Virus record (IMG/VR): IMGVR_UViG_3300049733_000058
Coordinates: 1-64,000 of that record
DNA: 64,000 bases
Reading direction: 5' to 3' (one strand)
DNA from: a virus
Part shown: positions 4,532 through 63,880 of the stretch, in pieces
Numbering within the stretch: position 1 is the first letter of the stretch
Layout: each line of letters opens with the position of its first letter
Notes under the pieces: generated by a model
What the model was told of the DNA's origin: nothing
The model's input: only the letters and a program-made list of their open reading frames with translations
The model's database searches: none
Program-made: the position numbers and the translations under genes

Positions 4532-7500
4532 CTAGCCCTTTCTGCTCAGTGCGATGCTGACCTCACGGTCCCTGCGGTCTACCACGTTCCTGGCGATGCG
4601 AGCGAACTCCTCATGGCCCGCAATGTTGCCACTGAAGACGACGGTGCTGCTGACGTTGACGACACTGCCTGCGGCGGACTGCATCCTTCCCGGTCGCACG
4701 TCGTAGAAGCCACCCCGGTCCATGGGCACGGTGGCATATCCGAACATGGTGGCGACTCGGTCCAGAATTGCCAGGTCTCGCTTGGTGGGTCTGCCGTGGT
4801 GCAGCGGGATATACGCCTCCCCGCCAGTTTCAGGTTCAGCCCACAACCGCCAGGTGCCACCCTTGGCCATCTGAGCGACGTGGTGCTCACCACCCCGTGC
4901 GAACGACTTGATGATTCCACCCTTGGCGGCACCCATGGCCGCGATGTTGGCCTGGTCGGCCACTCGCATCCCTGCGATCTCGAGGTACTGGCGCAGGGTG
5001 ATAGTCTTGTCATTCAGGTTGTCCCACATGGTCTTGTACTCACGCAGTTGCGAAAGTGAAAGACCGAAGTCAGTCGCCAGTTTGACTTCGTGGTGGGTGG
5101 GCAGTTTGTCAACGGCTTCGCCAAAGTCTGTGATCTTGTGGCGAGCGAGGTAGTCGATGACGTCGATGACCAGTTTCAACTCATGCTCCGGCAAGCCGAA
5201 GGTGCGGACCAGTTCCTTGGCAGCCTTCTCGCCGCCCTGGATCAGAGTGACGAACATCTCCCCCACCTGAGCCTCGGTCAGTCCCGTGCTTTGAACAAGT
5301 GTCTGCATGGAGAGACGGAAGTGATCCTGTACGGCGGGCATCTGTGCGTTCAATGCTGTTTCCAGAGCGGGTGGGATGCTGGAGGCCAAGGTCCACCCGA
5401 ACTCGGTGGCGATCCTCCCCGCCTCTTCCGGTGTGATGCCCATGGCCTGGGCGATGCGCTCCTTGGTGGCGGCTTCACCCAGGAAGGTGATGATGGGCGC
5501 CATCTCCATGGCGGCTGCCATATCCTTGGCCTTGAATGGGTCGGCCGCTGCCTTGGCGATGAGGTCTGCTTCGATGGCCAACTTCAACCGCATCTCCCGC
5601 ATGGCGTTGGTGGCGTTGTTGACCATTTCAATGACGGCTTCGCTGTTCTTGCCCAGGAGCACGTCAATGGCGTTGGCCGCAGCGTTCGGCCCCGCCATGG
5701 CAATTTCCATCAGCGTCTCGGCATTGAGGCCCCGGCGCATCAGTTCCTGGATGCCTTCTACGAACCTACCGCTGGTGTTCAGTTGGGCGAACAGGTAACC
5801 CCGTAGTTCCTGCTCACCCTCGGCCCCGGCGTGCTCAATGGCGCCCACGATGCTGAAGTCCTTGCGGAAGGCACCGACGATATCTGCCACCGTCTTCTCG
5901 ATGTACTTCCTGTATTGCTCGATCTGCTTCTGGGACTGTTGGATGGCCTGCCCTGTCTGGTTGAGGATGGGACCGCCAGCAGCCGAGGCCAGGTTCTGCC
6001 ATTCCTCCCGTACCATCTTGAGTTCTTCACGGGACAGGCGCCCACTGTTGAGCAGGTCCTTTCCAAGCATGTTGCTGACGTTGTTGACGGCTTTGCCCAA
6101 GTGGGGCAGTTGTCCGGCCAGGTTTCGGTAGACCTCGGCAGTGGGGCGAGCACCATCTCGCCAGAGTTGCATCCAGACGTTGGTGGAAATCTTGTTGAGT
6201 TTGGTCTGCTTCTCGACAAGTCGGTTGAGTTCCTTGGTGGCCTCGATGTTGGCGACGCCCTTGCCGATCACGTCGGGCAGAAGGCTGCCTGCCCCTACAA
6301 TGTTCAACAACTCGTGACCCACGCCTTGCAGCACACCCTTGGTGGTGCCCCACACACTTTGATATTGCTGCATCGCATCGGCGGAGGAGTTCTGTTCCTT
6401 GCGGACGGCGGCTATGGCCCTCTCCAACCCGGACCAGGTGTTCAGGTTGAAGCCCTGCGTCAGTTGCGCAAGGTTCATGCGAGCGTTCTGCTGGGCCTGG
6501 TTCAGTGCGCCGAGGCCAACGGTCAGCCCGAGGAAAGCGGCCGGAAGCCCGATAGCGAGTCGTGGAATCCACCGTGCTATCGCCTGGAGGCCGCTGCCGG
6601 TGCGGGTCAGCATGGTGGCCACACGTTCGGTGACCAACCCGGTGCGGGCGAGGATGGCGGTCAGCCACGTCAAGGCGGTGCCCGTGGTACGCACACCACC
6701 TGGAATTCTAGTGAACACAGAGAGCAGGCCCAACTTCTGAGACTGCAACTTCTGGGCCGAAGCACCCATCATGTTGCTGGTATTCGTGAAGAGGGTTCCT
6801 GCTCTGGCGTAGCGACTGGCAGCCAGGACGATGCTGTTGCTACTGGCCTGCCATCTCATTCCGAAGTTCGTGACCCAGTTGCCTGCGGCCTGGACGACCT
6901 TGCCCAGCCCAGCGGTGGCAGCCCGCACGGCGATGGACTTCAGCACGAACATGCCCAGCACCCCAACCACCACCATCAGCGCACTGGAAAGCCCACCCAG
7001 GAGGGCGATAGCGGTCTTCAGTGGGCCAGGCAGGACGTTCCATGCACCGGCCATGAAGGTCACCACCTGCGCCATGGCCTTCACCACGGGCAGGAACACC
7101 GCACCGATTTCCAGGCCGATGGACTTCAGTTGATTTATCATCAACTTGATCTGCATGCTGGCCGACTGCATCTGCTGCTTCAGAGCGTCGTTGGTGGCTC
7201 CCGTGGTCTCCTTCATCTGCTCTTGCACACGGTTGTAGGTCTGGCCTTCGTTGGCCATCAATGCCAGGGCACCCCGAGCGGCTCTGATCTCGTCGAACCA
7301 CTCCAGCAATACGCTGATGTTGCCGCCGCTGGCCTTACGTAGTTCTTCCATGACGGCGTGCAAGCCCCGGCTGGCCACCGCCTGCTGAAGCGTCTGGCTA
7401 CTGAGCCTGGACCATGCTGTGGTCAACGCCTCGCTGGGCTGAATCAGGGACTGCACCATGCGGTTGAGGCTGGTGCCGCTCTCTGCGGCGCTGATGCCAG

Positions 7501-8224: not shown

Positions 8225-9136
8225 GATGCGCTTCCTCGTTTAGTCGCAGGAACACGTAGATGTGGTCCCTCTGCTTATCAGGAATCTCATCCCTGGCAGC
8301 GGAGAGCGTCTCGCAGCCTAGACAGTTGACGGTGTGTGCGATGTAGGGATCGACGGTATGTGGCTGGCCCTTGTCGTTGAGCCACTCGTCTGGGAAGGTG
8401 CCGCAGTTAGGGCACCTCTCTCCCGCATGCAACTCGTATTCGATTGCGGCTTCCTGGTCGTGCTCGTCCCAGGACAAGAACTCCGAATGTGGTATGCCCA
8501 TCTGATTGCAAAGGCGCATCTCAAGGCGGTACCTCGGGTCTCGTTTCAGCCTTTTCCCAGGTCAATGACCGATGCGTGGAATTGTGCGTTCTGGGCTGTG
8601 GTCAGCAGCGCACCTAGTTCGGCAGCCGACCAGTCTGGATCGTCGTAGATCTCCTGCACTTGCTCCAGGGTGAGGTCTGGCTCGACGATGGCCTCGGCAA
8701 TCAGAGCCGGAGGGAAGGTGTCGCTGTTCCACTCCAGCATGTCCGGGTCTTGGCCGTAGGCCTCTGCCTTCTGCTTCTGCTCATCCGTGGGTGGGTTGGA
8801 AAGCAGGAGGTCTTCGTAGCGCTTGCGACCGATACTACGGAAGACGAACACAACGGATCGCTCGGTCGCCGCCTTCTCAGCCTTTTCGTAGGCTGCCTTG
8901 GCGTCCTTGAGTCGGTGCTGCACGCCCGTGTCCTCCGGCCCTGCATGCTCTACTTCGATCTCTGCGTATCGAAGATCGTTTTGGGCCTTGATGAACTCTT
9001 CCCCGATCTCGCTGTCCAGGCAGAGCCGCAGTGTGCGAGTCACCGGCTTCTTCATGGACTTGAGATGGTCGAACGTCTGCGGACGACTCTCTTGTGTCTT
9101 GGTGGTCACGTTGCTTGGCTTTCCCGAGTTGGACAT
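8193..9136 (-). CDS. Tail assembly chaperone GT, -1 frameshift product
   Basis: This product is made when ribosomes slip back one base at GGGAAAA (8558-8552) near the end of the G frame. Reading then continues with RLKRDPRYRLEMRLCNQMG through the downstream frame to the stop at 8193, giving about 314 residues. The extension carries two Cys pairs (CPNCG and CLGCE) that look like a zinc ribbon. The first ATG of the downstream frame, at 8519, has no convincing independent ribosome site, and the peptide RYRLEMRL before it is coding-like, so the fusion is preferred over separate translation. G and GT proteins coat the tape measure during tail assembly. Confidence 0.88.
8546..9136 (-). CDS. Tail assembly chaperone G
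   Basis: 196 residues, acidic and helical, beginning MSNSGKPSNVTTKTQE, with AGGGGG just upstream of the ATG. It lies between the major tail protein and the tape measure, the fixed site of the first chaperone. Features include a central helix rich in Lys/Glu/Ala and a C-terminal segment DWSAAELGALLTTAQNAQF similar to other actinophage G proteins. The last codons carry the slippery site, so a fraction of product extends as GT. G is needed for tail assembly and is usually absent from the virion (family knowledge). Confidence 0.9.
   Translation of the reverse strand: MSNSGKPSNVTTKTQESRPQTFDHLKSMKKPVTRTLRLCLDSEIGEEFIKAQNDLRYAEIEVEHAGPEDTGVQHRLKDAKAAYEKAEKAATERSVVFVFRSIGRKRYEDLLLSNPPTDEQKQKAEAYGQDPDMLEWNSDTFPPALIAEAIVEPDLTLEQVQEIYDDPDWSAAELGALLTTAQNAQFHASVIDLGKG
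8552..8558 (-). other. Programmed -1 ribosomal frameshift site (GGGAAAA)
   Basis: On the minus strand the codons CTG GGA AAA GGC TGA end the G frame. They contain the slippery heptamer G GGA AAA just before the stop at 8546-8548. It fits the X XXY YYZ rule, lies at the position conserved in lambda-like G/GT pairs, and puts translation in the frame that encodes the 119-residue T extension. Confidence 0.88.
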
Positions 9137-22819: not shown

Positions 22820-23181
22820 GCAACATCCTCGGTGATCCAGACCTTGATCTTGCGTCCGCCAGTCAGGTCGTCATTGGGGATCGTTTCGGTCTTTCCTGCG
22901 ATGTTCACCTTGAACTCGGCGTCGTACCAACCCGGAGTGTCGGTATCACCTGCGGCCCAGTCGTAACGCAGAATTGCGTTGGGCGCATCCTCAACGAAGC
23001 CGGGACTTCCGTCGATCTTGGGCGGGTCGGTGGCGTCACCTTCGGCTCGGAGGAAGAACGTGATGGGTGTTGACGGTTGCAGGTCGGGCAGTGGAACCTT
23101 GTGACCATTGACCCGAGTGAAGGCTGCAATCTTGAGGCTGGGCAGCCGGTCACCCTTGCCAATCTTGAAAAACTCTTCCAT
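22816..23181 (-). CDS. BppU-like N-terminal domain protein
   Basis: 121 residues; ATG 23181 is preferred over 23184 because GAGG then lies five bases upstream. The pattern GKGDRLPSLKIAAF, then ITFFLRAEGD, then ILRYDWAAGDTDTPGWYDAE, matches the baseplate-upper-protein N-terminal fold (short beta sandwich with a W-xx-D-T-x-G-xY core). Such proteins attach receptor-binding parts to the tail. It lies between the giant repeat tail protein and the terminase, an unusual site for a tail gene. Confidence 0.75.
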   Translation of the reverse strand: MEEFFKIGKGDRLPSLKIAAFTRVNGHKVPLPDLQPSTPITFFLRAEGDATDPPKIDGSPGFVEDAPNAILRYDWAAGDTDTPGWYDAEFKVNIAGKTETIPNDDLTGGRKIKVWITEDVA

Positions 23182-26100
23182 CATGTCCTCATTTCCGTGA
23201 GGATGTGGCTCTGCATCAAGCGAGCCTGCACACCGCTCTGGACGAAGGCTATGTCAGTGTCGCCGCTGTTGAGGATCCGCACACTAATCGGTCCGCCGAA
23301 GGCCACCAATGGAATGGCATCATCTACGGTGATCACCACCACGGCCCGGACCACTGCGGTGGCCTGTACCGGACCCACCACCACCGTCGCATTGACGACC
23401 ACCAGGGCCACTACGGGCTGCACGGTGCCCACAGCGACCACCGGGGTCATCACTGCCAGGCCCGTGGCGTGGATCACAATGCTGGGGACCGTCGCCAGGG
23501 CAGCCACGTTGATGGTGGCGACGCTTGGAATTGCCGTGATGGTCACTGCCTGGACGGTGGCCAGAGACTGAACTCGGCTGACGGCGACCGTCTCGCCTGC
23601 TCCAGCCTGAACGGTAACTTGCTGAACCGTCGCCACTGCCGCTGCTGGAGTTCCAACGATGATGGCAGTGGTGTTGATGGTGACAGGGCGAACCGTGGCT
23701 GTGGCTTGCACCAAGTTCGGTGCGGGGACGGCAGTCGTAGAAATTGTGACGGGCTGAACAGTGGCGGTAGCCGGTACCCGCCCCGGCGTGACAGTGGCAC
23801 CACCCCCGGCCTGAATTGCCACGGCTTGCACGGTGGCTATCGCCGATGCGGGTGCGACAATCGCAGCACCCGTGAGGTTGATGGTGACGGTGCGAACTGT
23901 CGCTACTGCGGCCACCACGTTCGGGGCAGGCGTGACCGCTGCCAGAACCGTCACCGACGGCACCGTCGCAGTGGCGGATACCTTGGGTGGAGCCGCCAGG
24001 GCAGGAACCGTGATGGATACCGTCGGGACGGTCCCGGTCGCCACCACGGGAGTGCCGCCGAGCACAAGAGCCGTGGTGGAAATCGTGATGGCTGGCACCG
24101 TAGCAGTTGCCGCCACTCGGTTGGGTTGGATAGTCGGTACAGCGCTGATATTGACGGGCTGGACCGTGGCGATTGCCGCCACCGTAGAGGGTTGAGCCAG
24201 TGCAGCGGGGGCAGCGGAGGCCACCCTCACGGTGGCGGTCGCCGCTACTGGTCCCGGCGCAACGGTTGCAGTAGCGGAGATCGTGATGGTTCGTACTGAC
24301 GCAGTTGCCGTCACTGCGAGTGGTGTGACCGTAGTGCCAGCACCGGCCTGAACCACAACGCTGGGAACGCTGGCCGTGGCTGCCACTGGAGTTCCAGCAG
24401 TGACCAGCGCCGTCGTGTTGATGGTCACGGCTCGGACAGTTGCCGTCGCCGCAACCACATTCGGAATTGCTGCCCCGGAGAAGTTGATCGTTACGTTGCG
24501 AACCGTGGCTGTGGCTACAACCGGAGTCCCCGCAACGATTACGGCTGTCGTGTTGATGGTGACGGCTCGCACCGTAGCCGTGGCTGCTACTGGAGTCCCC
24601 GTGGTGACAACCGCAGTGGTATTAATAGTAACACTAGGAATACTGGTCGTTGCAGTGACTGTGCTAACCGGAACGTCGGTCGCTCCCCCAACATCAATCG
24701 TGACAGCGGGGACCGCAGCCGTTGCGGCCACGGTCGTCGTGGGGACGTTCGCCGTTGTGAGGACAAAGACTGAGGGCAATCCACTGGTGATCCACGGCGG
24801 GTTGGTCTGCGTGTTGACCGTGGTGCCATCCGTTGCAATGGAATATGGCGGGCCAATCGTGGTGCTGGGTTGGTCAAGTTTGATGACGACGTAGGCACCG
24901 AGGGTGCCCCACTGTTCGGAGACCGCAGCGAGGGCTTCTACCTGCCCGTCGGACATGTCCGAAGCCCATGCCGCCCCGGTGTAAACGTCTCCATCCCAGA
25001 ACTGGCCAGAGGAGATGGCGCTGTTCCCGGCATCAACAACGCTGTCGGCTTTCGTATTGGAGAGGTTCTCGTGAACCCAGACCCCGGTGTCGTATCGGTA
25101 GATATGCCCACGAGGTTGCACTGTGCCGCTGGCCTTGGAGATCACCAGCAGCACCCAGCCGTGCGCCGCCAGAATCGCAGTAGTTCCAACGTGGTTGGTG
25201 CCGTTGGTTTGGAGCCGTAGGAAGTTGTCGGCACCGTTCCTGGAGAATTGGTACCTGTTCGCAGTGCCAGGACCAAGCCTGAGGATGCCCTGATTTCCAG
25301 AGAGGGCGTCTTCGGTGGCGGCTCGGCAGATCACCGCAATGGTGAATGGACCGGTGATGGCACTGTTGTCGATATTGAAGTTGATTCGATCAGCAGCGGC
25401 CCTGCTGAACGTGCGGTAGTTGGTGGAAGACGGCTTGGCGTAGGGCCGTACCGGCTGCACGAGGAACGAGGTCGGAATCGAAGGTGTGACAGTGCGGACG
25501 GTGGCCGTTGCCACCACAGTTGAAACTAGAACGTCCGTGTTCCCAGCAGTTTGAACTGTTACAGCCTGGACAGTTGCAGTGGCGGCAACCGGACTGACGG
25601 GCACGTCTTGATTGCCACCGGTAACCACGGTGACACTAGGGACCGAGGCAGTTGCAGCCACCACATTCGGCGTTGCGATGCTAACGGCGACCGGTGTGAC
25701 AGTTTGTACGGTTGCGGTTGCAGCCACTGTGGCGGGTGGGACACTCCCCGTGGCTGAGATCGTCACTGTACGAACAGTTGCGGTTGCTGACACCGTGGCC
25801 GGAGCAGCAGCCACGCCAATTGCGATAGTGACTGCGGGCACGCTGGCGGTCACACTGACCTTGGCCGGTGTGACTGTCTGTGGAATTGAGATCGTCACGC
25901 TGGGAACACTGGCCGTCGCCGCAACCCTGCCCGGCGTGACGGTAGTTGGTCCAGCACCGGCTCGCAGGTACACCTCGTCGTAGACCCACTGACTCGTGCC
26001 TACGTCGTAGACCATGCCCAAGTAGACATTTCCACTACGGGTGTAAACGTTGGCGCTGGCGAGCGTCGAAGTTACGTCTTGAAGAACCCTCTTTACCCCG

Positions 26101-27725
26101 ACCCACCCGCTGCCCGTGTCCTGGCTCCAGTACGGCTCAGAGAATGAATCAACATAGACGAAGGATTTGTTCGTCCCGTCGTAGGGCGCACCACCCATCG
26201 GCCCCACTTGGTCGGTGTTTCCGATGGTTTGTTGCTTTGGAGACCCACCCACGTTCGTCACGGTCCACGTCGGCGTGTCGGCGTCACTCGCAACTGCGAC
26301 TGACGAGTTGTGGAATCCACCAACCTGGAACCGATAGAACGGCACGCAGATCTGGTTCCCACTCGACAAGAACGCCTGCCCGCTGGAGTGCTGCACATCA
26401 TCAAGTGAGGCAACGAGGTACAACGCCTGGCTCGAAACGGTGTATGCAGCCGTTGCCGGGGCGGTGCCACCGAGGTTGTCGGTGGACTTGACGCACCGGC
26501 CCATGATGAAACTGGAGTTGCTGGCTCCCTGAACTGTTGCACCTCTGGTCCAGAACAGATGCACTCTGTCTGAACTGGCAAGCAACGCACTGTCAACACT
26601 TTCTGACTGCTGGGTTGTCGCCGTAGAGCCGAACCCAATGTCGGTCGTCGCACCCCAGGAACCGCTGGAACGCCGACGAGCCGCAACCCGGCCGTAGGTC
26701 TTGCCCATGTTGGTGACGCCAGCGATGTTGTGGAACGAGATCAGATCTCCGTTGCTACGCCGAGCCACGGCGCATCCGTAGTTGATCGGCGTCGTCGTAC
26801 CGTGCGCATGAGAACTTGCTTCAAGCGTGTCGGTGCTCATGTCCAAGGACCGGCCTGACACCTGTGCAGCAGGGCCAGTGGTCAATCCCGCACCAACGAC
26901 ATACAGCGTGTCGCCCACCTGATGGGCGTGGACGCTTGCCATCGACGACGTATGACCGAACATAGTGACCCCAGCAGCAAACGATGAGGTCGGGTCGGTC
27001 GCCTTGTAGTACACAACGTTGGTGCCTTCAATGCCGATGACGTACACATTCCCGGCCGACGAGATGAATGGACCATTCCAACCGATGCCGTCCGAAGGCC
27101 CGGTGAAGTTCGCAATCGCCTGCGGCAGAGAGGCGTAATCCTCAGAGGTGAATTCGTCAACCTCGACCTGACCTACCGTGCCTACCGATCCAATGGTGAC
27201 ACCAAATCCGCACGAGCCAACGCTGGCGCCAATTTTCATCCGATTGACGTGCGTTCCACCGTTGATGTAGGCAGCCCAAGAGTAGTAAGCATTGCTGGTC
27301 CCGAAGCCCCCGCTTTGACGTATCTCGAACGTGAACGGCGCAGAAGGCAACGTCACTTGAAGTTCTGTGCCCGTCGCCTGAGCGGTCCAGGTGCCAGCAG
27401 TGGTCATGCTTCCGAACTGCACGAACGCCGTCCCGGCACTGGTGATGCGCAACCGAGCGCCGTAGTAGGTAGTAGCCGCGAACCCGATGAAGGCGTACAC
27501 GGCGTTGTCCGTGCCGCTGGCCGGTGCTGTGAACGTCTTGACCGTGACGACGGTGCGCTTCTGGTTGCTGGCGGATTGTGAGCAGCGAGCCAGGTTGGTG
27601 GTGTTGGCAGAAACTGCCCGACAGGCGTTGCTGACCACCTGAAGATCGCCGTTCTCGGTCCAGGACTGATCCGGGCCTAGAGTGGTGCTGTCCGCAGTGT
27701 TGAAGGATTCATTGGCAACGCTCAT
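23181..27725 (-). CDS. Giant repeat-rich tail / receptor-binding protein
   Basis: 1514 residues, coupled by ATGA to the methyltransferase gene. Residues about 1-190 look like a LamG/concanavalin-type beta sandwich. Residues about 200-590 have propeller-like short repeats (GNVYVIGIEGTNVVYYKA). About 7 degenerate repeats cover 594-753, and a second LamG-like domain covers about 755-985 (ADRINFNIDNSAITGPFTIA). About 21 more repeats occupy 988-1478. The repeat is 21-24 residues with consensus P-x-V-x-A-T-A-T-V-x-x-V-T-I. A short C-terminus follows (FGGPISVRILNSGDTDIAF). The domains suggest cell-surface binding on an extended stalk. Its place among packaging genes is odd. Confidence 0.8.
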   Translation of the reverse strand: MSVANESFNTADSTTLGPDQSWTENGDLQVVSNACRAVSANTTNLARCSQSASNQKRTVVTVKTFTAPASGTDNAVYAFIGFAATTYYGARLRITSAGTAFVQFGSMTTAGTWTAQATGTELQVTLPSAPFTFEIRQSGGFGTSNAYYSWAAYINGGTHVNRMKIGASVGSCGFGVTIGSVGTVGQVEVDEFTSEDYASLPQAIANFTGPSDGIGWNGPFISSAGNVYVIGIEGTNVVYYKATDPTSSFAAGVTMFGHTSSMASVHAHQVGDTLYVVGAGLTTGPAAQVSGRSLDMSTDTLEASSHAHGTTTPINYGCAVARRSNGDLISFHNIAGVTNMGKTYGRVAARRRSSGSWGATTDIGFGSTATTQQSESVDSALLASSDRVHLFWTRGATVQGASNSSFIMGRCVKSTDNLGGTAPATAAYTVSSQALYLVASLDDVQHSSGQAFLSSGNQICVPFYRFQVGGFHNSSVAVASDADTPTWTVTNVGGSPKQQTIGNTDQVGPMGGAPYDGTNKSFVYVDSFSEPYWSQDTGSGWVGVKRVLQDVTSTLASANVYTRSGNVYLGMVYDVGTSQWVYDEVYLRAGAGPTTVTPGRVAATASVPSVTISIPQTVTPAKVSVTASVPAVTIAIGVAAAPATVSATATVRTVTISATGSVPPATVAATATVQTVTPVAVSIATPNVVAATASVPSVTVVTGGNQDVPVSPVAATATVQAVTVQTAGNTDVLVSTVVATATVRTVTPSIPTSFLVQPVRPYAKPSSTNYRTFSRAAADRINFNIDNSAITGPFTIAVICRAATEDALSGNQGILRLGPGTANRYQFSRNGADNFLRLQTNGTNHVGTTAILAAHGWVLLVISKASGTVQPRGHIYRYDTGVWVHENLSNTKADSVVDAGNSAISSGQFWDGDVYTGAAWASDMSDGQVEALAAVSEQWGTLGAYVVIKLDQPSTTIGPPYSIATDGTTVNTQTNPPWITSGLPSVFVLTTANVPTTTVAATAAVPAVTIDVGGATDVPVSTVTATTSIPSVTINTTAVVTTGTPVAATATVRAVTINTTAVIVAGTPVVATATVRNVTINFSGAAIPNVVAATATVRAVTINTTALVTAGTPVAATASVPSVVVQAGAGTTVTPLAVTATASVRTITISATATVAPGPVAATATVRVASAAPAALAQPSTVAAIATVQPVNISAVPTIQPNRVAATATVPAITISTTALVLGGTPVVATGTVPTVSITVPALAAPPKVSATATVPSVTVLAAVTPAPNVVAAVATVRTVTINLTGAAIVAPASAIATVQAVAIQAGGGATVTPGRVPATATVQPVTISTTAVPAPNLVQATATVRPVTINTTAIIVGTPAAAVATVQQVTVQAGAGETVAVSRVQSLATVQAVTITAIPSVATINVAALATVPSIVIHATGLAVMTPVVAVGTVQPVVALVVVNATVVVGPVQATAVVRAVVVITVDDAIPLVAFGGPISVRILNSGDTDIAFVQSGVQARLMQSHILTEMRT
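23290..24760 (-). repeat. Coding repeat array, block 2 (about 21 units)
   Basis: Tandem degenerate units of about 63-72 nt inside the giant tail gene, each encoding a strand pair such as GTPVAATATVRAVTINTT. Units differ at the DNA level, so this is an old, selected protein repeat, not a recent DNA duplication. The variation between units (VTINTTA, VTISTTA, VVVQAGA) is mostly at the unit ends. Confidence 0.85.
25465..25945 (-). repeat. Coding repeat array, block 1 (about 7 units)
   Basis: The same repeat family as block 2, encoded before the second LamG-like domain. Examples are PGRVAATASVPSVTISIPQ and PATVSATATVRTVTISATG. The two blocks flank the domain like stalk segments. Confidence 0.8.
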
Positions 27726-30523: not shown

Positions 30524-30882
30524 ACCAGAATCCTGTTCCGTCTGATCAGGCCACGGATGGCCTTGATCTTGGACTCGTTGGCGTGGGGGTCGAACACTTG
30601 CAGGCCGTTGTACCGAAACTGCTCGGCCAACTCGTGAATGATGCGAAACTGCATGCAGGTGTAGGCCTCGATGACGATGTCGGCCTCGGTGTGGCTGGGC
30701 TTGACTACGAAATGCTCGCCGTACCACGGCAGACGTTCCCCGGATTGGTTCGAGTTCATGGGTGGGGGCACCATGTCACAGTGGACTTCCAACCTACTGG
30801 GCGGGGTCGTCTTGAGTGTGAATTGCCATCCCGGGCACGTCATGCTTTCCAATACGTGCGCCACTTGGTCTGCTCTCAACAT
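30520..30882 (-). CDS. Hypothetical protein following the small terminase
   Basis: 120 residues. ATG 30882 has GGGAGGAG about 12 bases upstream and overlaps the small-terminase-like gene by 89 nt. It starts MLRADQVAHVLESMTCPGWQ and ends with a helical part (FRIIHELAEQFRYNGLQVFD). The overall alpha/beta look is that of a compact folded protein. Alternative starts at 30843 or 30765 would remove the overlap. No family recognised. Confidence 0.65.
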   Translation of the reverse strand: MLRADQVAHVLESMTCPGWQFTLKTTPPSRLEVHCDMVPPPMNSNQSGERLPWYGEHFVVKPSHTEADIVIEAYTCMQFRIIHELAEQFRYNGLQVFDPHANESKIKAIRGLIRRNRILV

Positions 30883-31789
30883 CGATGACGTACTCCTCCC
30901 CGGCTGAATCTAGGGCCAGCATGTGGTCACGCACCACCGCAGGCATGATGGCCTTCTGCACGTTGGTGATGGCCAAGCGCTCATCCTGGAAAATGCGCTG
31001 GATGACCATGGCAAACAACCTACCTTGTTCTTCTGCCACACGAACTTGACGCTCGGCCACACCGGCAGCCAATGCGGCTTTTGATGAGGACACCAGACGA
31101 TCACGTTCTTTGTGGTACAGGTCGATCCACACGCTGGGCTGCACGCCAGTGGCTTCGGTGTACTGGGTCAGCAAGCGCTTGTCCTCAAAACTGTTGATCA
31201 ACTCGGCCAGCCACTCCACGTGTCCAGAACTCCGTTGCACTTCTTGCAGCAGGGCAGTGTTGGGGTCCATGTTCTGGTTGGGTCTGCCGTACATCTCCAT
31301 CAGGTCGGTGGCAATCTGGCGCTGCACGGCAATCTCGTGGCTTTCGGTCAAGCCACCGTGGTCTCGGCATGACCCGTAACCGGGGTGGGCCGTGCCCCAA
31401 CCCGCACTACGGCAGCAGATACCCGGCCCAGACGATGACCTGCCCGTGCGCTGCGCACCGCAGATCTTCTTGTTTCTCTTTCTGTCGGCCGGGGTCTTGG
31501 GCGCACGAGGGTCAACCTCACCCTTCTTGAACGTTTGGTACTTGTCGGTGCGCTTCAAGTTCTTGGCTCGGTCTTTGGCCCACTCGCCTTTGTAGTTTCC
31601 ACGCACCACCGTGTACTTGCCGGTTTCCGGGTGCACGCCGGAGTAGTCCACGCCCGGTATCCCCTCTTTCTTGCGTCTGCCCCGTTGGGGCTTGGGCGTC
31701 GTGGTGGTCACGGTCTGACGACCGCTCCCACGTGTTCCGGAAACTGTGTTGGGGCGGCGCTTGGGGTTGGCGACGGGCTTGCGAGCCAT
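30794..31789 (-). CDS. Terminase small subunit-like protein
   Basis: 331 residues from ATG 31789, chosen because AGGAG lies about nine bases upstream; the frame extends to 31918 without a site. The basic N-terminus (MARKPVANPKRRP) precedes a Cys cluster at about residues 110-145 ending GWGTAHPGYGSCRDHGG. This zinc-finger-like C-CC-C-HGG pattern recurs in actinophage small-terminase-like proteins. A helical C-terminal half follows (EDKRLLTQYTEATGVQPS). These proteins recognise phage DNA for packaging. It opens the minus-strand operon but is about 8 kb from the large subunit, which is unusual. Confidence 0.75.
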   Translation of the reverse strand: MARKPVANPKRRPNTVSGTRGSGRQTVTTTTPKPQRGRRKKEGIPGVDYSGVHPETGKYTVVRGNYKGEWAKDRAKNLKRTDKYQTFKKGEVDPRAPKTPADRKRNKKICGAQRTGRSSSGPGICCRSAGWGTAHPGYGSCRDHGGLTESHEIAVQRQIATDLMEMYGRPNQNMDPNTALLQEVQRSSGHVEWLAELINSFEDKRLLTQYTEATGVQPSVWIDLYHKERDRLVSSSKAALAAGVAERQVRVAEEQGRLFAMVIQRIFQDERLAITNVQKAIMPAVVRDHMLALDSAGEEYVIDVESRPSGARIGKHDVPGMAIHTQDDPAQ

Positions 31790-31890: not shown

Positions 31891-31923
31891 ATTGTACAAG
31901 GTAAACTAACTCTCCCACATGGC
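31891..31923 (-). promoter_or_regulatory. Candidate minus-strand promoter region with operator arm
   Basis: On the minus strand TACAAT (31896-31891) is a good -10 candidate about 100 bases upstream of the small-terminase-like start. The left arm of the 15-bp inverted repeat (31909-31923) lies over the expected -35. No consensus -35 is visible, as would be expected if the promoter needs an activator or is repressed from this site. Confidence 0.45.
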
Positions 31924-32036
31924 GCTCTCCGTACCTCTCTCTTTATGGCGTAAGACAGATAAATAACACATGTCATGTGTTTTATTGGGTTGTGATGCGA
32001 GTCTGCGGCTGCTTGCAGTTAGCCATGTGGGAGAGT
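31909..32036. promoter_or_regulatory. Divergent control region with 15-bp perfect inverted repeat
   Basis: ACTCTCCCACATGGC (31909-31923) is repeated as its exact reverse complement GCCATGTGGGAGAGT (32022-32036), 98 bases apart. The arms overlap the candidate promoters of the two diverging operons, so they look like paired operator sites for one regulator. The core CACATG recurs in the palindrome between them. Confidence 0.65.
31965..31981. promoter_or_regulatory. 17-bp palindrome AACACATG-T-CATGTGTT
   Basis: Perfect 8-bp arms around one central base, midway between the two 15-bp arms and sharing the CACATG core. It suits a dimeric repressor site; it could also form a short hairpin. Confidence 0.55.
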
Positions 32037-32041
32037 AAATT
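32013..32041 (+). promoter_or_regulatory. Candidate plus-strand promoter TTGCAG-N17-TAAATT
   Basis: The -35 box is TTGCAG (32013-32018) and the -10 box is TAAATT (32036-32041), with ideal 17-bp spacing. The right arm of the 15-bp inverted repeat (32022-32036) fills the spacer, so a bound protein would block RNA polymerase. It would drive the gene at 32071. Confidence 0.6.
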
Positions 32042-32070
32042 GCCAATAGACAAATTATATGGAGGATTTC

Positions 32071-32823
32071 ATGGGTTTCGTACGAGGTCAAGAGAGAAAT
32101 CGGACAACGTTGAAGATTCATGTGGTGGGTCTGGCGACGTTGGAGGATGTGTACGGCATTGCGAGGATGCCCATTCCCTATAGGCCGAAACTGGATTTTG
32201 AGGATGGGCTGGACTGTAGGTCTGCGGATGATGTATTCACATTGCTGTGGCGCTACACGGACCCAGTCAGACTTTCGCGATGGACTACCGCGAATCGAAA
32301 GTTGCAGTCTGGCAAGGATCACGGCGAGAAGTTGCTGGATGAATTCTATGCCCGTAAGGTCAATCGCATTGTGCTGGAGAAGGGCAAGCAGGTACCGCCG
32401 TGGTTGAAGGATGCGCTGGCAGAATGGGACCGGGATCCGTTCAATGAGATTCATCGTCTGGAGCCTGTACGCAGTGTGCCACCTGGTATCAACAGAGATG
32501 ATCTCAGTTATTACGAGGCCAAGGCGTGGCGATTGGTCTATTCGTATCTGAAGACATTGAAGTGGCCGCAAAGGTTGTACGTGTGGCAGCCAGTCGGTAC
32601 TGGGAAGGATCTCAACAAGCGCAAGTCTGATGCGGAGCGTGCAGGAGAGACCACGACGAAACAGGGCAGTAGGGTACCGAAAGCAAGGTATCCGACCCCA
32701 GAGGAACTGGAGCAGTTGCGCACTGGGAAGATCACCATTGATGACTTGCCCTGGCGTCAGTTCAATACCAAGGGTAGGCAGGCAGCGTGGGATGCCAACG
32801 AGATCGGGAGGACAGAACGATGA
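32071..32823 (+). CDS. Hypothetical protein, first gene of the rightward operon
   Basis: 250 residues from ATG 32071, with GGAGG six bases upstream; an in-frame ATG at 32059 lies before that site. The sequence has a mixed fold with many Trp and Arg residues (LLWRYTDPVRLSRWTTANRK, AWRLVYSYLKTLKWPQRLYV) and a Lys/Arg-rich C-terminal third. It is the first gene under the divergent promoter and overlaps the resolvase gene by 4 nt. No named family recognised. Candidate roles are an early DNA-associated protein or regulator, by position only. Confidence 0.75.
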   Translation: MGFVRGQERNRTTLKIHVVGLATLEDVYGIARMPIPYRPKLDFEDGLDCRSADDVFTLLWRYTDPVRLSRWTTANRKLQSGKDHGEKLLDEFYARKVNRIVLEKGKQVPPWLKDALAEWDRDPFNEIHRLEPVRSVPPGINRDDLSYYEAKAWRLVYSYLKTLKWPQRLYVWQPVGTGKDLNKRKSDAERAGETTTKQGSRVPKARYPTPEELEQLRTGKITIDDLPWRQFNTKGRQAAWDANEIGRTER

Positions 32824-33338
32824 TCGTCATGGGCATTGACCCCGGTGAGACCACGGGCTGGGCAGTGTGTGAGTTCATGGCTCGGGGGAAGTTGGAAGTT
32901 GTCTCTTGTGGTGAACTCAATGGTGAGGAGTTGATCTCTGACGGCATTGACATGACCATGCCGGGGGCTGGGAACTACAGTCACCACCGGGCGATCTGCA
33001 TGGCGCTGATGGAGATACTGGTAGCGCATGATTGTTCTGTTGTCGTGGTAGAAGACTTCGTGCTGCGGCAGTTCACTACTATGGATCGGGCAGGCATCGG
33101 GCCGCATGGCATCATCAACATGTTGGAAGTGTGGCTGTACGACATCATGATGCCTGCTGGGGAATGGCTGGGGGACGTGGTGTACCAGACACCCAGTCAG
33201 GCCAAGGGCGTCATGACAGACCAGCGAATGAAGTCTTTGGAACTATGGCAAAGAGGACTTCCACATGCGACGGATGCAGTTCGGCATTGTGAGGTGTTCA
33301 GGCGGAAGACGCAAGGAATAGGGCGAACAGGGAAGTGA
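32820..33338 (+). CDS. RuvC-like Holliday-junction resolvase
   Basis: 172 residues from ATG 32820 (ATGA overlap). It begins MIVMGIDPGETTGWAV, the RNase-H-fold first strand with the catalytic Asp. A second strand, VVVVEDFVL near residue 75, carries an acidic residue, and the ending HATDAVRHC near residue 155 supplies the last Asp. This is the pattern of phage RuvC-like nucleases that resolve branched DNA in recombination or before packaging. Confidence 0.85.
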   Translation: MIVMGIDPGETTGWAVCEFMARGKLEVVSCGELNGEELISDGIDMTMPGAGNYSHHRAICMALMEILVAHDCSVVVVEDFVLRQFTTMDRAGIGPHGIINMLEVWLYDIMMPAGEWLGDVVYQTPSQAKGVMTDQRMKSLELWQRGLPHATDAVRHCEVFRRKTQGIGRTGK

Positions 33339-33653: not shown

Positions 33654-34283
33654 ATGGCCGAGGTTACCAAGGAACTGCGGGTGAAGGCGTGCAACGCCTA
33701 CGTTCAGGCCAAGCGGGACGGCAAGTCCAACGTGGAAGCCAAGGGCGTGGCGCACAAGATCGCCAAGGTTGGCCACTCGCTCCTGGATCTGTCGTGGTAC
33801 GCCACGAAGTTCGAGGCTCTGGGCACGTTCGCCCAGGTGGCGGAGGGCGAGACCGCTCAGGCGATCGTGGCGCTCCGTGGTGGGGCAGGCTGGAACGGCA
33901 AGCATGTGGGCCAGCGGCTCGCATGGGGGCCGATCAGCATCTGCCTGGGGTGGTTCAACCCCAGCGATCCCAGCACGGCGGGCGAGAACGCAGTGCAGCG
34001 CCTGTTCCCGATCTGCACCAAGGTGGTGGCCGGTGTTCCGGTTGCGGCCGAGGGCACCCGATCGGGCAAGGGCGGGCGTTGGCTGGGCGATGACGCTTCA
34101 CTCTACGTCGGGAACCACAAGGGTCACGGCGTGGAGGAAGAGCGGCCTCGTGCAGTGGACCGCAAGGCACTGCGGGAAGGCGCCGACGAATACCAGGGCA
34201 AGGTGGTGGCGTTCGCCGCTGGCCGCAAGGCTGCGGCTCGCCGCCCCCGGAAGCCCAAGGCCGCACCCGCAGCCAAGAAGTAG
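33654..34283 (+). CDS. Hypothetical protein with basic C-terminal tail
   Basis: 209 residues, ATG with AAAGGTAGG upstream. The N-terminal part is helical (KELRVKACNAYVQAKRDGKS). The centre has WGPISICLGWFNPSDPSTAG, and the last 25 residues are Lys/Arg/Ala/Pro-rich (AARRPRKPKAAPAAKK), which suggests nucleic-acid binding. It is strongly expressed by appearance (good site, own -10-like TACAGT). No family recognised. Confidence 0.75.
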   Translation: MAEVTKELRVKACNAYVQAKRDGKSNVEAKGVAHKIAKVGHSLLDLSWYATKFEALGTFAQVAEGETAQAIVALRGGAGWNGKHVGQRLAWGPISICLGWFNPSDPSTAGENAVQRLFPICTKVVAGVPVAAEGTRSGKGGRWLGDDASLYVGNHKGHGVEEERPRAVDRKALREGADEYQGKVVAFAAGRKAAARRPRKPKAAPAAKK

Positions 34284-37518: not shown

Positions 37519-37805
37519 TGGCTTTCCCCGGACCCGGAGCAGAGATCCACTACAACGAAGCGGGTGAGCCCACCGGCTGGGACTATCCGTCCTATGAGCC
37601 GCCTGAGCCCGACCCCTACGAGGAATCCGCAGCGGATGCCGCTGCCGAAGCGGCGTACTTCTACGCCATGGACGAAGAGGGCGCATCCGACGACGAAGCC
37701 TGCAACTTCGCCCGGTATTACGTCCGGCACGCCAAGGGCCGAACCGAGACGCTGGAGTTCTTCTGGCGCTCTTGGGTGGAGACCAAGGAGGCGAAACTGA
37801 CGTGA
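37518..37805 (+). CDS. Acidic Tyr/Ala-rich protein
   Basis: 95 residues. Pro/Tyr/Glu-rich first half (DYPSYEPPEPDPYEESAADA), then a helical half (DDEACNFARYYVRHAKGRTE). It is overlapped by the PadR-like gene through GTGA. The acidic character could suit a DNA-mimic or antirepressor, but that is speculation. Confidence 0.65.
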   Translation: MAFPGPGAEIHYNEAGEPTGWDYPSYEPPEPDPYEESAADAAAEAAYFYAMDEEGASDDEACNFARYYVRHAKGRTETLEFFWRSWVETKEAKLT

Positions 37806-38002
37806 GACAGCGCAACCTTCTGGCCGTGCGGCTCGTGCTGGAGGATCATCCGGAGGGGTTGTATCCATTGCAGATCATGCGTCGCACCAGAATGCTCAGC
37901 GGAACGCTGTACCCGGTGCTGGCGCACCTGGAGCGTGAGGGCGAGATCACCAGTGAGCGCCACGACGATGGGCGGCGTCTGTACCGAAAGGTAGTTTCAT
38001 GA
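37802..38002 (+). CDS. PadR-like winged-helix regulator (minimal)
   Basis: 66 residues from GTG 37802 (GTGA overlap). LAVRLVLEDHPEGLYPLQIM followed by LSGTLYPVLAHLEREGEITS is the PadR-type winged helix, including the G-T-L-Y-P recognition-helix motif and a C-terminal wing with RRLYRKV. Normal PadR proteins add a dimerisation helix or domain, which is absent here, so this is close to a bare DNA-binding domain. It is a candidate phage transcription regulator, perhaps for the palindromes in the leaders nearby. Confidence 0.82.
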   Translation: MRQRNLLAVRLVLEDHPEGLYPLQIMRRTRMLSGTLYPVLAHLEREGEITSERHDDGRRLYRKVVS

Positions 38003-38720: not shown

Positions 38721-39169
38721 TGGCCAGGTGGCGGCTCTCGAAGTTGAACGTGCCCGGTTGGTGCATGGAATGCGAAGGGCACAGCCTGCCCGTGTTTGAC
38801 AACGAGTTTCACGGGGAGGGGTTCGTCACGGTGTACCACGATCTGCGGGTGCATAGGTCGTTCAACGCCGACCTGCGGGGCGATGGGTTCAAGGTCGTCA
38901 CGCATGGTCGTGACGTCACGAACAACTGCTTCGCCGCCTTCGTGTACCCGCCGTGGCTGCTGATCAAGCGCTGGAACGACCCCGACGTCGGTCCTCTCGC
39001 TCGTCGAGATGCCGGGTGGTACGCCGTCTACGAAATGCGGGACGGCCAACGGATTCCCTGTGTGAACTGCCGTAGTCGGGCAGCCCAAAATCTCCTCTAC
39101 ACCAGCGATCTCCACATACATCACACAATGAAGGTGCCCGATGCTTACGGCTATATCTGGCAAGACTGA
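38720..39169 (+). CDS. Hypothetical protein with two CxxC pairs
   Basis: 149 residues. CMECEGH near residue 15 and CVNCRS near residue 118 form two Cys pairs that could bind zinc. Between them is a His/Asp-rich beta region (GFVTVYHDLRVHRSFNADLR). It overlaps the SET-domain gene by 29 nt. No family recognised. Confidence 0.68.
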   Translation: MARWRLSKLNVPGWCMECEGHSLPVFDNEFHGEGFVTVYHDLRVHRSFNADLRGDGFKVVTHGRDVTNNCFAAFVYPPWLLIKRWNDPDVGPLARRDAGWYAVYEMRDGQRIPCVNCRSRAAQNLLYTSDLHIHHTMKVPDAYGYIWQD

Positions 39170-39545
39170 GGTCAAACGATCTCGCACCCACGGCTGGGGT
39201 GTGTTCCTCACCAAGGACGTTCGGAAACACGAGATCATCGAACGCTCTTTGGCGCTCGCAATTCGGGACACACACATTCGGAAACCGGATCGTTGGTCAC
39301 CCCTGACCACCCATGCCTTCCACCCGGCGGGGTTCCGGGAATTGTGGATCTGCACTGGCACGGGCAGTTTCTACAACCATCGCAATCCGGCCAACGTGCA
39401 CTACGAGTACATCGAAGCCAACGACGACACCAAGGCCGACTGGATGGAGTTCCGGGCGGTGGGCTACATGCCCAAGAACACAGAACTGTTCATCAACTAC
39501 AACGGAGAGTGGGACGATGCCACAGAAGTCACTTTCAGCCAGTGA
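39141..39545 (+). CDS. SET-domain protein (lysine methyltransferase-like)
   Basis: 134 residues. SRTHGWGVFLTKDVRKHEII at residues 14-33 matches the first SET motif (GxG). NHRNPANVHYEYIEAN near residue 80 is the N-H-x-x-x-P-N motif that binds SAM and forms the pseudoknot. PKNTELFINYNGEW near the end matches the last motif, with the catalytic Tyr. The domain is compact, with no pre- or post-SET. SET enzymes methylate lysine on proteins; in phages the target is unknown. Host ribosomal or nucleoid proteins, or the phage HU- or histone-like proteins, are candidates. Confidence 0.85.
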   Translation: MLTAISGKTEVKRSRTHGWGVFLTKDVRKHEIIERSLALAIRDTHIRKPDRWSPLTTHAFHPAGFRELWICTGTGSFYNHRNPANVHYEYIEANDDTKADWMEFRAVGYMPKNTELFINYNGEWDDATEVTFSQ

Positions 39546-44250: not shown

Positions 44251-44829
<579 letters not shown>

Positions 44830-47876: not shown

Positions 47877-48554
47877 ATGGCATCATTGCGTGAGTCCCTC
47901 ATGCCGCTCGGAAAGCGTGCGGTGAAGTTGCGTGACAAGGACGGCCTGCCCTGGTTCGAGATCGCCCAGCAGTTGGAGGTCCCGCAGGGCAAGGCTCTCG
48001 CCGCCTACGAAGTGGCATCCTGGCCGGACGCCAAGGTGTTCAAGGGCACCGAGGCCAAGGTGGCGGCGGAGATCGTCCGGCTGCGTGACAAGGAGGCCCT
48101 GAGTTGGGCACGAATTGCCGCACGGGTGGACGTCACCGAGGCCCGCTGCCGCACCATCTACGAAGAGACCAGCGGCAAGGCGCACCGGGGCAACCGGATC
48201 GGCAAGGGTGGCCGGTACCCCAGCGACGTCGAACGCCCGGCGACTAAGGCTCCGGCCAAGGCCACCGGCACCACCAAGAAGGCCGCAGCCAAGAAGGCTC
48301 CGGCCAAGGCCGAAGGTGGCGGCGGTCGAAGCGTCAACAAGCAACTGGCCATCCACCAGATGTCGAAGGACCAGTTGACCGCTCGCCTGACCGGCAAGGT
48401 CATCAAGTTCGACCACAACGGTCGGGTCAAGACCATGAAGGTGGGCGAGGTCGTCAACCTGGCGAAGAAGGGCGGCAACCTCACGGTGGCCGACGCCAAG
48501 GGCAACGAATTCACCTTCAACATCAGCGAGGACTTGGTGGACGCCAAGTCCTGA
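47877..48554 (+). CDS. Nucleoid-associated-like protein with HTH repeats and basic hinge
   Basis: 225 residues with AAGGAGAAAG upstream. Two similar helix-turn-helix-like units are visible: KLRDKDGLPWFEIAQQLEVP at about 17-36 and RLRDKEALSWARIAARVDVT at about 68-87. A histone-H1-like Lys/Ala/Pro hinge follows (KKAAAKKAPAKAEG), then a compact C-terminal domain (KVIKFDHNGRVKTMKVGEVV). It is likely to bind DNA and may compact phage or host DNA or control transcription. It has its own strong promoter and is closed by a strong terminator, so it is a separate, highly expressed unit. Confidence 0.75.
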   Translation: MASLRESLMPLGKRAVKLRDKDGLPWFEIAQQLEVPQGKALAAYEVASWPDAKVFKGTEAKVAAEIVRLRDKEALSWARIAARVDVTEARCRTIYEETSGKAHRGNRIGKGGRYPSDVERPATKAPAKATGTTKKAAAKKAPAKAEGGGGRSVNKQLAIHQMSKDQLTARLTGKVIKFDHNGRVKTMKVGEVVNLAKKGGNLTVADAKGNEFTFNISEDLVDAKS

Positions 48555-57629: not shown

Positions 57630-58366
57630 TGGTTTCAGCGGCGATACTCGGTTGTGGGCCTGCCGGGTTACTGGCGGCGGATGCCTGCGCCCTCATGGGG
57701 ATCGAATTCACCATCTACACTGACGACATCAAACCCAGTCGCATTGGTGGGGCACAGTTCTTGCACCGGCACATTCCGTATCTCAACACCATGGAGCCGG
57801 AGGCACTGGCTGAGTTCCGACACATGGGCACGGCGGCGGGCTACGCCAAGAAGGTCTACGGCGATCCCTTTGCTGAGACCAGTTGGGAGGCCTACCCCAC
57901 GGGCCTGGTTCCCATATGGTCCATGCAGAAAGCCTACGACCTCTTGTTTCGTAGGTACCGCAGTCACATGATCAAGCGGGAGATCGACATTGCGGCGCTG
58001 TACCGACTGAAAGAAAACTGGATCTTCAGTTGCATCCCGGCGCCTGCCCTGTGCGAAGATCACCCTCGGTGCCAGTTCGTCAGGCAGGACGTGTGGATCG
58101 TGGACGCCCCTGCCGCCCAGGAACACACCGTGGTCTACAACGGCTACGACGGGTTCAGTTGGTATCGGTACAGCAGTCTGTTCGGCAATGCGTTCTATGA
58201 ATATCCCATGCCGAGGACAGGTAGTTTCAAGATCAGCAAGCCGCTCCGTACCACCTGCCCCGGTCCTGACCGGCCTGGGCTGTACCGGCTCGGGCGCTAC
58301 GGCGCCTGGGAGAAGAAGGCTCTCATCCACCACGCTTACGAAAAGACTCTGGAGGTCATCGGGTGA
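57629..58366 (+). CDS. FAD/NAD-binding oxidoreductase-like protein
   Basis: 245 residues from ATG 57629, GGGAGG upstream. SAAILGCGPAGLLAADACAL at 3-22 is a GxGxxG dinucleotide-binding motif, followed by a beta-alpha-beta to FTIYTDDI. The rest has many Tyr/Trp residues and a conserved-looking GLYRLGRYGAWEKK near the end, which resembles a substrate or flavin-binding part. It is shorter than a full flavoenzyme, so one domain may be missing. Reaction unknown. Coupled by GTGA to the HAD gene. Confidence 0.75.
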   Translation: MVSAAILGCGPAGLLAADACALMGIEFTIYTDDIKPSRIGGAQFLHRHIPYLNTMEPEALAEFRHMGTAAGYAKKVYGDPFAETSWEAYPTGLVPIWSMQKAYDLLFRRYRSHMIKREIDIAALYRLKENWIFSCIPAPALCEDHPRCQFVRQDVWIVDAPAAQEHTVVYNGYDGFSWYRYSSLFGNAFYEYPMPRTGSFKISKPLRTTCPGPDRPGLYRLGRYGAWEKKALIHHAYEKTLEVIG

Positions 58367-58992
58367 AGTGCACCGAGTGCAGCCGCATTGTGGAGCCAGT
58401 GGTCGCCATAGATATTGACGGCGTGCTGGCCGAGTACCACGAACATCTTCTGACCTTCATGGACGGGTACTTCGGTCGCACCATGCAGCGAGGGTGGAAC
58501 GGCAGTGGTGACTGGGAGGACTACCTCAACTTGGATTCCAAGTCATACCGAGAAGCCAAGTTGGCCTTCCGCCAAGGCGGGATGAAGCGCACCATGCCCA
58601 ACATGCCCGGTGCGTTCAGCATCGTGTACATGGCGGTGGCTCGTGGGGCAGAGGTGTGGATCACCACCACCCGACCGTGGAACCGCCTGGACAGTGTGGA
58701 CCCGGATACCCAGGAGTGGTTGCGTCGCAACCATATCGACTACAGCCACCTTCTGTACGACGACCACAAGTACACCCGCCTGGCGCAGATCGTGCAGCCA
58801 GACCGGGTGGTGTTCGTGCTGGACGACCTTCCGGAGCAATGGGTCAGTGCAGAAGCGATGTTTCCAGGACGAGCCTTCTTGCTGACCCGACCGCACAACC
58901 TGGCAGCGGGCGAGAAGCCACGCCGTGTGGCAGACTTGGGTGCAGCACAGCAGCACATGATTCGTAATATCGAGACTTGGAGGGACATGTGA
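58363..58992 (+). CDS. HAD-like phosphatase
   Basis: 209 residues from GTG 58363. VVAIDIDGVLAEYHEHLL at 13-30 carries the nucleophile and acid Asp pair (D-x-D-G). WITTTRPWNRLDSV near 98 is motif II, DDHKYTRLAQI near 133 supplies the Lys, and VFVLDDLPEQWVSAE near 150 the last Asp pair. A CxxC at the N-terminus (KCTECSR) may bind metal. This is a complete HAD set, close to 5'-nucleotidase types. A nucleotide substrate is plausible given the replication setting. Confidence 0.83.
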   Translation: MKCTECSRIVEPVVAIDIDGVLAEYHEHLLTFMDGYFGRTMQRGWNGSGDWEDYLNLDSKSYREAKLAFRQGGMKRTMPNMPGAFSIVYMAVARGAEVWITTTRPWNRLDSVDPDTQEWLRRNHIDYSHLLYDDHKYTRLAQIVQPDRVVFVLDDLPEQWVSAEAMFPGRAFLLTRPHNLAAGEKPRRVADLGAAQQHMIRNIETWRDM

Positions 58993-59771
58993 AAGAGCGC
59001 ATCAGTACGTCATATCTGGACAAGGTCAAACACAACTTCGGAGACCAGGCAGTGCTGCCGTACACCCATCTCCGTGCGGCGCTGGTGGTAGGCACCGACC
59101 GGCACCGCAGCATCGGGCGGGCCGTGGTTCAAGAACTCTCCCGCTCTGGCATGAAGGACGTGTGGGCGCCAGGCAAGAAGGACTTCAATGTGCTGTCTCC
59201 GGCGCAGATGAAGAACTGGCTGTGGAACCACGACTTCATCGATACGCTGGTGTTGTGTCAGGGGTACACCCACCTGGCTTGGTTCGAAGACCAGATGCCG
59301 GATGACCTGGTTAAGCAAGTGGAAGTCAACCTGACGGGCACCATGCATGCCCTCAGTGCATTCGTCAACCGCACCATGAGCGAGCGGCACACTCGGAAGA
59401 CGATCGTGTGTGTGGGCAGTATGGCTCACAACCATGTGCTGAACGCCAGTGCGGCGTACTGCGCCAGCAAGGCGGGGGTGGCGCATCTCGTTCGATGCTT
59501 GGGCCACGAGTTGACGCCCAAGGGTTTCTACATCTACGGGGTTCACCCCGGCAACGTGCAGGGAACACCCATGGCCGAGGACACCATTCAGGGCATCGTG
59601 GAATACCGGCACGTTGAGCATGATGTTGCGCAGGAGTACTGGGCCAGTGGTCTCCTGATGCCACGCTTCTTGAGGGCGGAGGACGTGGCTACCACCATTC
59701 GCAACCTTGTGCTGAGCGACAACGGTTATCAGTCCGGCACGAACATCGAGTTGTCTGGAGGAATGAGGTGA
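58989..59771 (+). CDS. Short-chain dehydrogenase / reductase (SDR)
   Basis: 260 residues from GTG 58989 (GTGA overlap, GGAGG upstream). RAALVVGTDRHRSIGRAVVQ near residue 29 is an atypical T-G-x-x-x-G-x-G nucleotide loop. VNLTGTMHALSAFVNR is the Asn motif, IVCVGSMAHNHVLNASAAYC with YCASK the catalytic Ser-Tyr-Lys, and VHPGNVQGTPM the PG motif. All main residues are present, so it should be active with NAD(P)H. Substrate unknown. It is the third enzyme of a coupled cassette. Confidence 0.85.
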   Translation: MKERISTSYLDKVKHNFGDQAVLPYTHLRAALVVGTDRHRSIGRAVVQELSRSGMKDVWAPGKKDFNVLSPAQMKNWLWNHDFIDTLVLCQGYTHLAWFEDQMPDDLVKQVEVNLTGTMHALSAFVNRTMSERHTRKTIVCVGSMAHNHVLNASAAYCASKAGVAHLVRCLGHELTPKGFYIYGVHPGNVQGTPMAEDTIQGIVEYRHVEHDVAQEYWASGLLMPRFLRAEDVATTIRNLVLSDNGYQSGTNIELSGGMR

Positions 59772-63563: not shown

Positions 63564-63880
63564 ACAGAACAGAAATGGCACAGTACATCGCCAACCAGAC
63601 GGGGCACCCCCGCAGCGAAGTGCTGGACATCATCTCGGCCATGCAGGAAGTGGTCACCGACACCCTGCGCAACGGGGAGACGGTGGTGCTGACGGGCTTC
63701 TGCAAGTTCGCCAAGCAGGACGTCCCGGCCAAGAAGGCACGCAAGGGCATCAATCCGTTTACCCAGGAACCCACCACCTTCAAGGCCAAGCCCGCCACGG
63801 TCAAGGTGAAGATCACACCCCTGAAGAAGATCAAGGAAGACGTGGCTCGCAAGGGTCGCACCCGCAAGGCGATTCACTGA
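63560..63880 (+). CDS. HU-like DNA-binding protein
   Basis: 106 residues from GTG 63560 (GTGA overlap). NRTEMAQYIANQTGHPRSEV, then TVVLTGFCKFAKQDVPAKKA, then NPFTQEPTTFKAKPATVKVK, match the HU/IHF fold, including the beta-arm region. The C-terminus is basic (ARKGRTRKAIH). It would bend or wrap DNA in replication or packaging. The Pro at the arm tip is replaced by a PFTQEP segment. Confidence 0.9.
   Translation: MNRTEMAQYIANQTGHPRSEVLDIISAMQEVVTDTLRNGETVVLTGFCKFAKQDVPAKKARKGINPFTQEPTTFKAKPATVKVKITPLKKIKEDVARKGRTRKAIH

Follow-up and report, generated by a model that had tools for sequence, protein, structure and literature searches.

How a phage controls the two halves of its genome when both gene arms begin at one short gap is the question raised by the locus described here. 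The phage (G000) is IMGVR_UViG_3300049733_000058, and the window, meaning the whole stretch of DNA that was analysed, covers positions 1–64,000 of its 68,531-bp uncultivated virus record. Both arms begin at a 281-bp divergent gap, which extends from the leftward start codon ending at 31789 to the rightward ATG at 32071. Read outward from the gap, the leftward (structural) arm encodes a phrog_3678 protein, the terminase large subunit, portal, scaffold, major capsid and tail proteins, while the rightward arm consists of a 250-aa gene, a RuvC-like resolvase, an HTH-like gene, many small genes, a helicase, a PD-(D/E)XK nuclease, an AAA ATPase, a primase, DnaE and HU. The genes flanking the gap are as follows:

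30794–31789, minus strand: first leftward gene, phrog_3678 family (E 1.2e-26), 331 aa, with a zinc-type C/C/C/H motif and a helical domain
32061–32065, plus strand: GGAGG ribosome-binding site of the first rightward gene, read from the sequence
32071–32823, plus strand: first rightward gene, 250 aa, without a family match
32820–33338, plus strand: RuvC-like resolvase (phrog_1981, phrog_159), conserved in relatives, where it opens the corresponding arm

The polarity asserted in the earlier note, with all genes to the left leftward and all to the right rightward, holds for the confidently called genes within the window. In the full 68.5-kb record, leftward genes appear again at 65249–68312 past a convergent junction, one of them weakly tail-tip-like, and the map therefore comprises one divergent and one convergent junction. 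The sole convergent junction lies outside the window at 64945–65249 of the full record, where a Thy1 thymidylate synthase faces the leftward genes. The closest cultured relatives of DnaE are found in Arthrobacter, Streptomyces and Microbacterium phages (~48% identity), which makes an actinobacterial host likely. Several other genes were noted along the way. A 1514-aa reading frame (23181–27725, minus strand) occupies the space from the large terminase to the phrog_3678 gene, where G003, a relative introduced below, has far less room. The rightward arm encodes a small SET-domain protein, unusual for a phage early region (39141–39545, plus strand; PF00856, E 1.9e-7), and a resuscitation-promoting-factor-like transglycosylase (44284–44829, plus strand; PF06737, E 2.5e-28), which thus lies in the replication arm and not among the structural genes. 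A 5′-nucleotidase (NT5C)-like gene followed by a short-chain dehydrogenase gene (58363–59771, plus strand) adjoins the polymerase.

Within the gap, two matching arms face each other across a palindrome:

31904–31923, no strand: left arm, with 15 perfect bp at 31909–31923, from an inverted-repeat search with shuffles
31965–31981, no strand: 17-bp palindrome AACACATGTCATGTGTT midway between the arms, read from the sequence
32022–32041, no strand: right arm, with 15 perfect bp at 32022–32036, from the same search

The perfect 15-bp inverted repeat and the central 17-bp palindrome reported earlier are both confirmed. The arms ACTCTCCCACATGGC and GCCATGTGGGAGAGT are exact reverse complements with 98 bp between them, and in their extended form 18 of 20 positions match. 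Nowhere else in the window does an exact inverted repeat within 200 bp reach 15 bp, which makes this pair the longest of its kind; by chance, ~2e-5 such repeats are expected in a gap of 281 bp and 0.02 across 64 kb. When the gap was shuffled 150 times, the maximum was 10 bp. Likewise, the junction has a best-mirror score of 30, whereas 300 dinucleotide shuffles reach no more than 23, and it ranks top among 638 sliding windows (runner-up 28). The palindrome is centred at 31973 and the arm pair at 31972.5, an offset of 0.5 bp. Since palindromes with 8-bp arms occur about eight times in the window, AACACATGTCATGTGTT is by itself ordinary or only mildly unusual. No further copies of arms or palindrome beyond chance were found across the window. 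Searches of the junction DNA against phage records, of both 12-bp arms as a spaced pair in viral contigs, and scans of genome collections returned no matches.

The core of the gap is AT-rich (GC 41.5% vs 60%), in keeping with a divergent control region; an AT-rich, dyad-symmetric segment adjoining the replication arm would also suit a replication origin at which initiator sites in inverted orientation surround an AT-rich core. Such an origin is nevertheless improbable: the gap holds no iteron array, the GC skew does not change sign at 32 kb, and the element sits exactly where divergent promoters are needed anyway.

The earlier note had suggested looking for the same repeats at this junction in related genomes. 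Three relatives were reached via their polymerase, terminase and capsid proteins: G003 (IMGVR_UViG_3300033407_000017), G004 (3300037189_010748) and G015 (3300042691_015661); LuckyBarnes, Rooney and Tank were picked opportunistically and are not a census. The boundary in G003, G004 and G015 is built as in G000, with terminase-side genes pointing one way, RuvC as the first gene in the opposite direction and the HTH-like gene next. The 250-aa gene that precedes RuvC in G000 appears, from this comparison, to be inserted there. A paired inverted element does recur in the distant relatives G003, G004 and LuckyBarnes, while its sequences are unrelated. The gap of G003 contains 26-nt arms, TTATTATTGTTGTTCATGCGTGCGAG and CTCGCACGCATGAAACACAATAATAA, with 24 of 26 positions matched, together with a palindrome, GGCCACTGTATAAATACAGTGTCC. 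G004 has inverted arms of 44 columns (34/44, 77%), and the cultured Brevibacterium phage LuckyBarnes a 34-nt pair (27/34) adjoining the record end, at its 50470–50774/1 junction; all three pairs beat 300 of 300 dinucleotide shuffles. The junction pair of G015 (12/14) is weak and within chance, being reached by 29 of 300 shuffles, and a clear palindrome is absent from the G015 and G004 junctions. In Rooney the best mirror is an unconvincing purine-rich low-complexity sequence, and the Tank junction has no mirror pair. A second copy of the junction from the same species was not found, and the same-species or near contigs L014, L029 and L030 end before it.

Inverted repeats as such are not limited to junctions. 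The junction is the top mirror window in G003 (42 vs 40) and in the sampled part of G004 (34 vs 33), but not in G015, and high scores also occur elsewhere, at ~8.7 kb in G003 contig L011 (score 40) and at ~16.1 kb in G004 contig L017 (score 33). These top-window margins are small, and the strength of the observation lies in the coincidence of place. L011 also holds two more exact inverted repeats away from the junction, of 18 bp (8714–8731 and 8818–8835) and 16 bp (5199–5214 and 5244–5259).

Compared across phages, the junction sequences show no likeness beyond shuffles, save one marginal 15-nt match between G003 and G004; CATG occurs in the arms of G000, G003, G015 (left arm) and LuckyBarnes and is too short to weigh. 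As far as these alignments go, the architecture is kept across distant relatives and the letters are not. Because the arms match within a phage but not between phages, the comparison points to selection on the pair. The spacing of the arms and the position of the palindrome vary between phages (the G003 gaps measure 17 and 38 nt), so a looping geometry is not conserved. The arms might instead be what is left of a recent event that duplicated one promoter segment in inverted orientation, retaining no current joint function, and the G004 pair, which is longer and more diverged, does resemble a decaying duplication. We regard a relic as unlikely, since such duplications would need to have arisen separately at the corresponding boundary of several lineages, each time from a different sequence, and in G000 only ~15–20 bp are identical.

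Homologues of the phrog_3678 protein lie near the terminase in G003, G004, G015, TripleJ and LuckyBarnes, and the genome ends of many two-arm actinophages lie between the structural and early arms. The gap could on these grounds be a cos or pac site for packaging or genome ends beside the terminase genes, with the arms as terminase-binding sites and a conserved terminase-proximal protein as the leftward neighbour. That reading is quite unlikely, given that the Rooney and TripleJ records begin exactly at the terminase start codon, which suggests circular permutation without fixed ends, and that the G000 contig is continuous through the site. Furthermore, phrog_3678 as a small terminase has no fold match, and LuckyBarnes annotates a different gene in that role; structure predictions for the first rightward protein and the phrog_3678 protein were of low confidence and gave no usable fold match.

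The gap is the natural place to look for promoters, and the following elements were considered:

32013–32018, plus strand: −35 candidate TTGCAG (3/6), not better than chance
32036–32041, plus strand: possible rightward −10 TAAATT, overlapping the end of the right arm and fitting TANNNT only
31891–31896, minus strand: possible leftward −10 TACAAT (5/6 vs consensus), without a good −35 and a candidate only

The rightward promoter proposed earlier, TTGCAG-17-TAAATT, has its hexamers and 17-bp spacer as described, but the match is no better than chance; similarly, the TACAAT hexamer of the opposing promoter is present on the minus strand as a fair −10, but belongs to no above-chance promoter. The best 12-base match is 8/12, the commonest value in shuffles, and a consensus scan of 6 kb for sigma-70-like promoters found none against 1.5 expected by chance. 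The junction therefore lacks a sigma-70/SigA divergent pair whose two hexamers, −35 and −10, stand out from chance on either side. The loose actinobacterial −10 is TANNNT, and TACAAT and TAAATT, both of which fit it, are retained only as candidate −10 elements. The arms adjoin possible −10 elements in G000, G003 and G015 (left side only).

The placement of transcription starts matters for an alternative in which the arms would act as RNA. If outward transcripts started nearer the centre, both would carry the identical sequence GCCAUGUGGGAGAGU in their leaders, where it could recruit, for either arm, a complex acting in processive antitermination or in regulation. In lambda nutL/nutR and HK022 putL/putR, identical elements face outward in divergent transcripts and act as RNA in the leaders. 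The G000 arms resemble these in being identical and facing outward, their mirror orientation would yield the same sequence in both outward transcripts if these start inside the arms, and the G003 palindrome holds TACAGT, a possible −10, on both strands. Unlike nut and put, however, the outward leader stretches of G000 share no common strong hairpin and have no Rfam match; by eye, no TANNNT lies between the G000 palindrome and the arms, the elements of this type being at or outside the arms. An RNA role is accordingly rather unlikely.

If the arms are instead sites on DNA, a protein that recognizes them should be sought, and four encoded proteins come into question:

33654–34283, plus strand: HTH-like protein with an R(I/S)GKGGR-type motif, downstream of RuvC; pairwise E 1e-6 and 3e-7 vs the same-position proteins of G003 and G004, in an alignment that includes G015
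37802–38002, plus strand: PadR-like 66-aa winged-helix protein (PF03551, E 2.4e-5, below cut-off)
47877–48554, plus strand: related two-HTH (sigma-70 region 4-like) protein, a second regulator candidate with homologues in G003, G004 and G015
63560–63880, plus strand: HU-like nucleoid protein (PF00216, E 2.8e-19)

The PadR-like and nucleoid-like proteins had been put forward for gel-shift assays. Both are encoded in G000, which bears out the naming of them, but neither is supported as the natural regulator: the PadR-like and the HU-like protein each have no match in G003, G004 and G015, whose records may be incomplete, and both were dropped as conserved regulators on this account. The HTH-like protein lies downstream of RuvC in all four of G000, G003, G004 and G015. 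Pairwise comparisons give modest similarity (E 1e-6 to 5e-13), the G000 copy being the most diverged. We consider it the best-supported candidate regulator, ahead of PadR or HU, and one that may bind the arms.

Taken together, we lean modestly towards reading the junction as a lineage-specific bipartite operator/promoter pair, whose two arms would be addressed by one predicted phage DNA-binding protein. Near-identical elements are indeed found on both outward sides of the divergent gap, at 15/15 in G000 and similarly in G003, G004 and LuckyBarnes. The gap would then serve as a common divergent control region for both transcription arms. Its two outward promoter regions would share one phage-specific recognition element in identical form, each possible −10 having an arm over it or immediately upstream. 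The central palindrome would be a dimer site midway. A phage-encoded DNA-binding protein would bind both arms, and perhaps the palindrome too, and thereby set the output of both genome arms together, possibly via a looped or bridged complex. The site occurs once in the window, and its sequence changes from one relative to the next while the two copies remain matched within each phage; co-evolution of the pair with a lineage-specific protein is therefore probable, the best candidate being the HTH-like protein downstream of RuvC.

The earlier note favoured an early/late switch. A single divergent, regulatory-looking region does separate a structural from a replication arm, but the elements on the two sides are identical, which supports common control at least as well as opposite control. 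A switch at the junction is thus plausible but unproven. Joint repression, joint activation and opposite effects on the two arms are all conceivable. The right arm abuts TAAATT, whereas the left arm overlies the −35 region of TACAAT; an opposite effect on early and late genes would need such differing arm-to-−10 distances to decide its sign.

Known systems offer partial parallels to a paired operator of this kind. The phi29 A2b/A2c/A3 switch (p4, p6) governs early and late promoters from a single control region, where inverted-repeat p4 sites overlap the promoters and the position of p4 relative to each promoter decides the sign of its effect (PMC3100819). G000, with its structural arm to the left and its replication arm to the right, may likewise have one control region in which candidate inverted sites overlap possible promoters. 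It differs in having two identical arms and one palindrome of unrelated sequence, compared with four imperfect p4 sites of known sequence and proven function; no phi29-type CTTTTT-15 bp-AAAATG inverted repeats were read in the 281-bp gap. The candidate regulators seen in G000 are HTH-like, PadR-like and HU-like, and no p4 homologue was identified among them. Furthermore, a nucleoid protein takes part in phi29 (PMC3100819), while the HU-like protein of G000 was not found in relatives. Among actinophages, cluster O mycobacteriophages have predicted divergent SigA-like promoters, PL1 and PR2, firing from one AT-rich intergenic region comparable to that of G000; their 17-bp palindrome, however, is repeated more than 30 times genome-wide, whereas the G000 elements occur at a single junction, as a mirror pair facing outward (PMC4351075). 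Clusters K, EG and EF contain short conserved intergenic or start-associated repeats, sometimes inverted and presumed regulatory, which are multi-copy and start-associated, in contrast to the single mirror pair at the arm boundary of G000 (PMC7302621). In prokaryotic bidirectional promoters, one pseudo-symmetric core serves both directions, with RNA polymerase binding one way or the other (PMC12825309). Symmetric DNA at a point of divergent transcription is common to both, but the G000 arms lie 98 bp apart.

Our literature search, whose coverage was incomplete and which is therefore weak evidence of novelty, turned up no account of a mirror pair of lineage-specific sequence at a structural/replication boundary. 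It is possible, if doubtful, that the junction exemplifies a general, fast-evolving mirror-image switch at this boundary in two-arm actinophages, in which two identical private sites would be matched to the phage's own regulator and their letters would change as a set. For the scheduling of the two arms in actinobacterial phages without lambda-like control regions, a mirror-image site that recurs with phage-specific letters offers a compact, defined 180-bp target together with a named protein family and, if the paired-operator reading is true, would account for how one regulator controls both halves of the genome.
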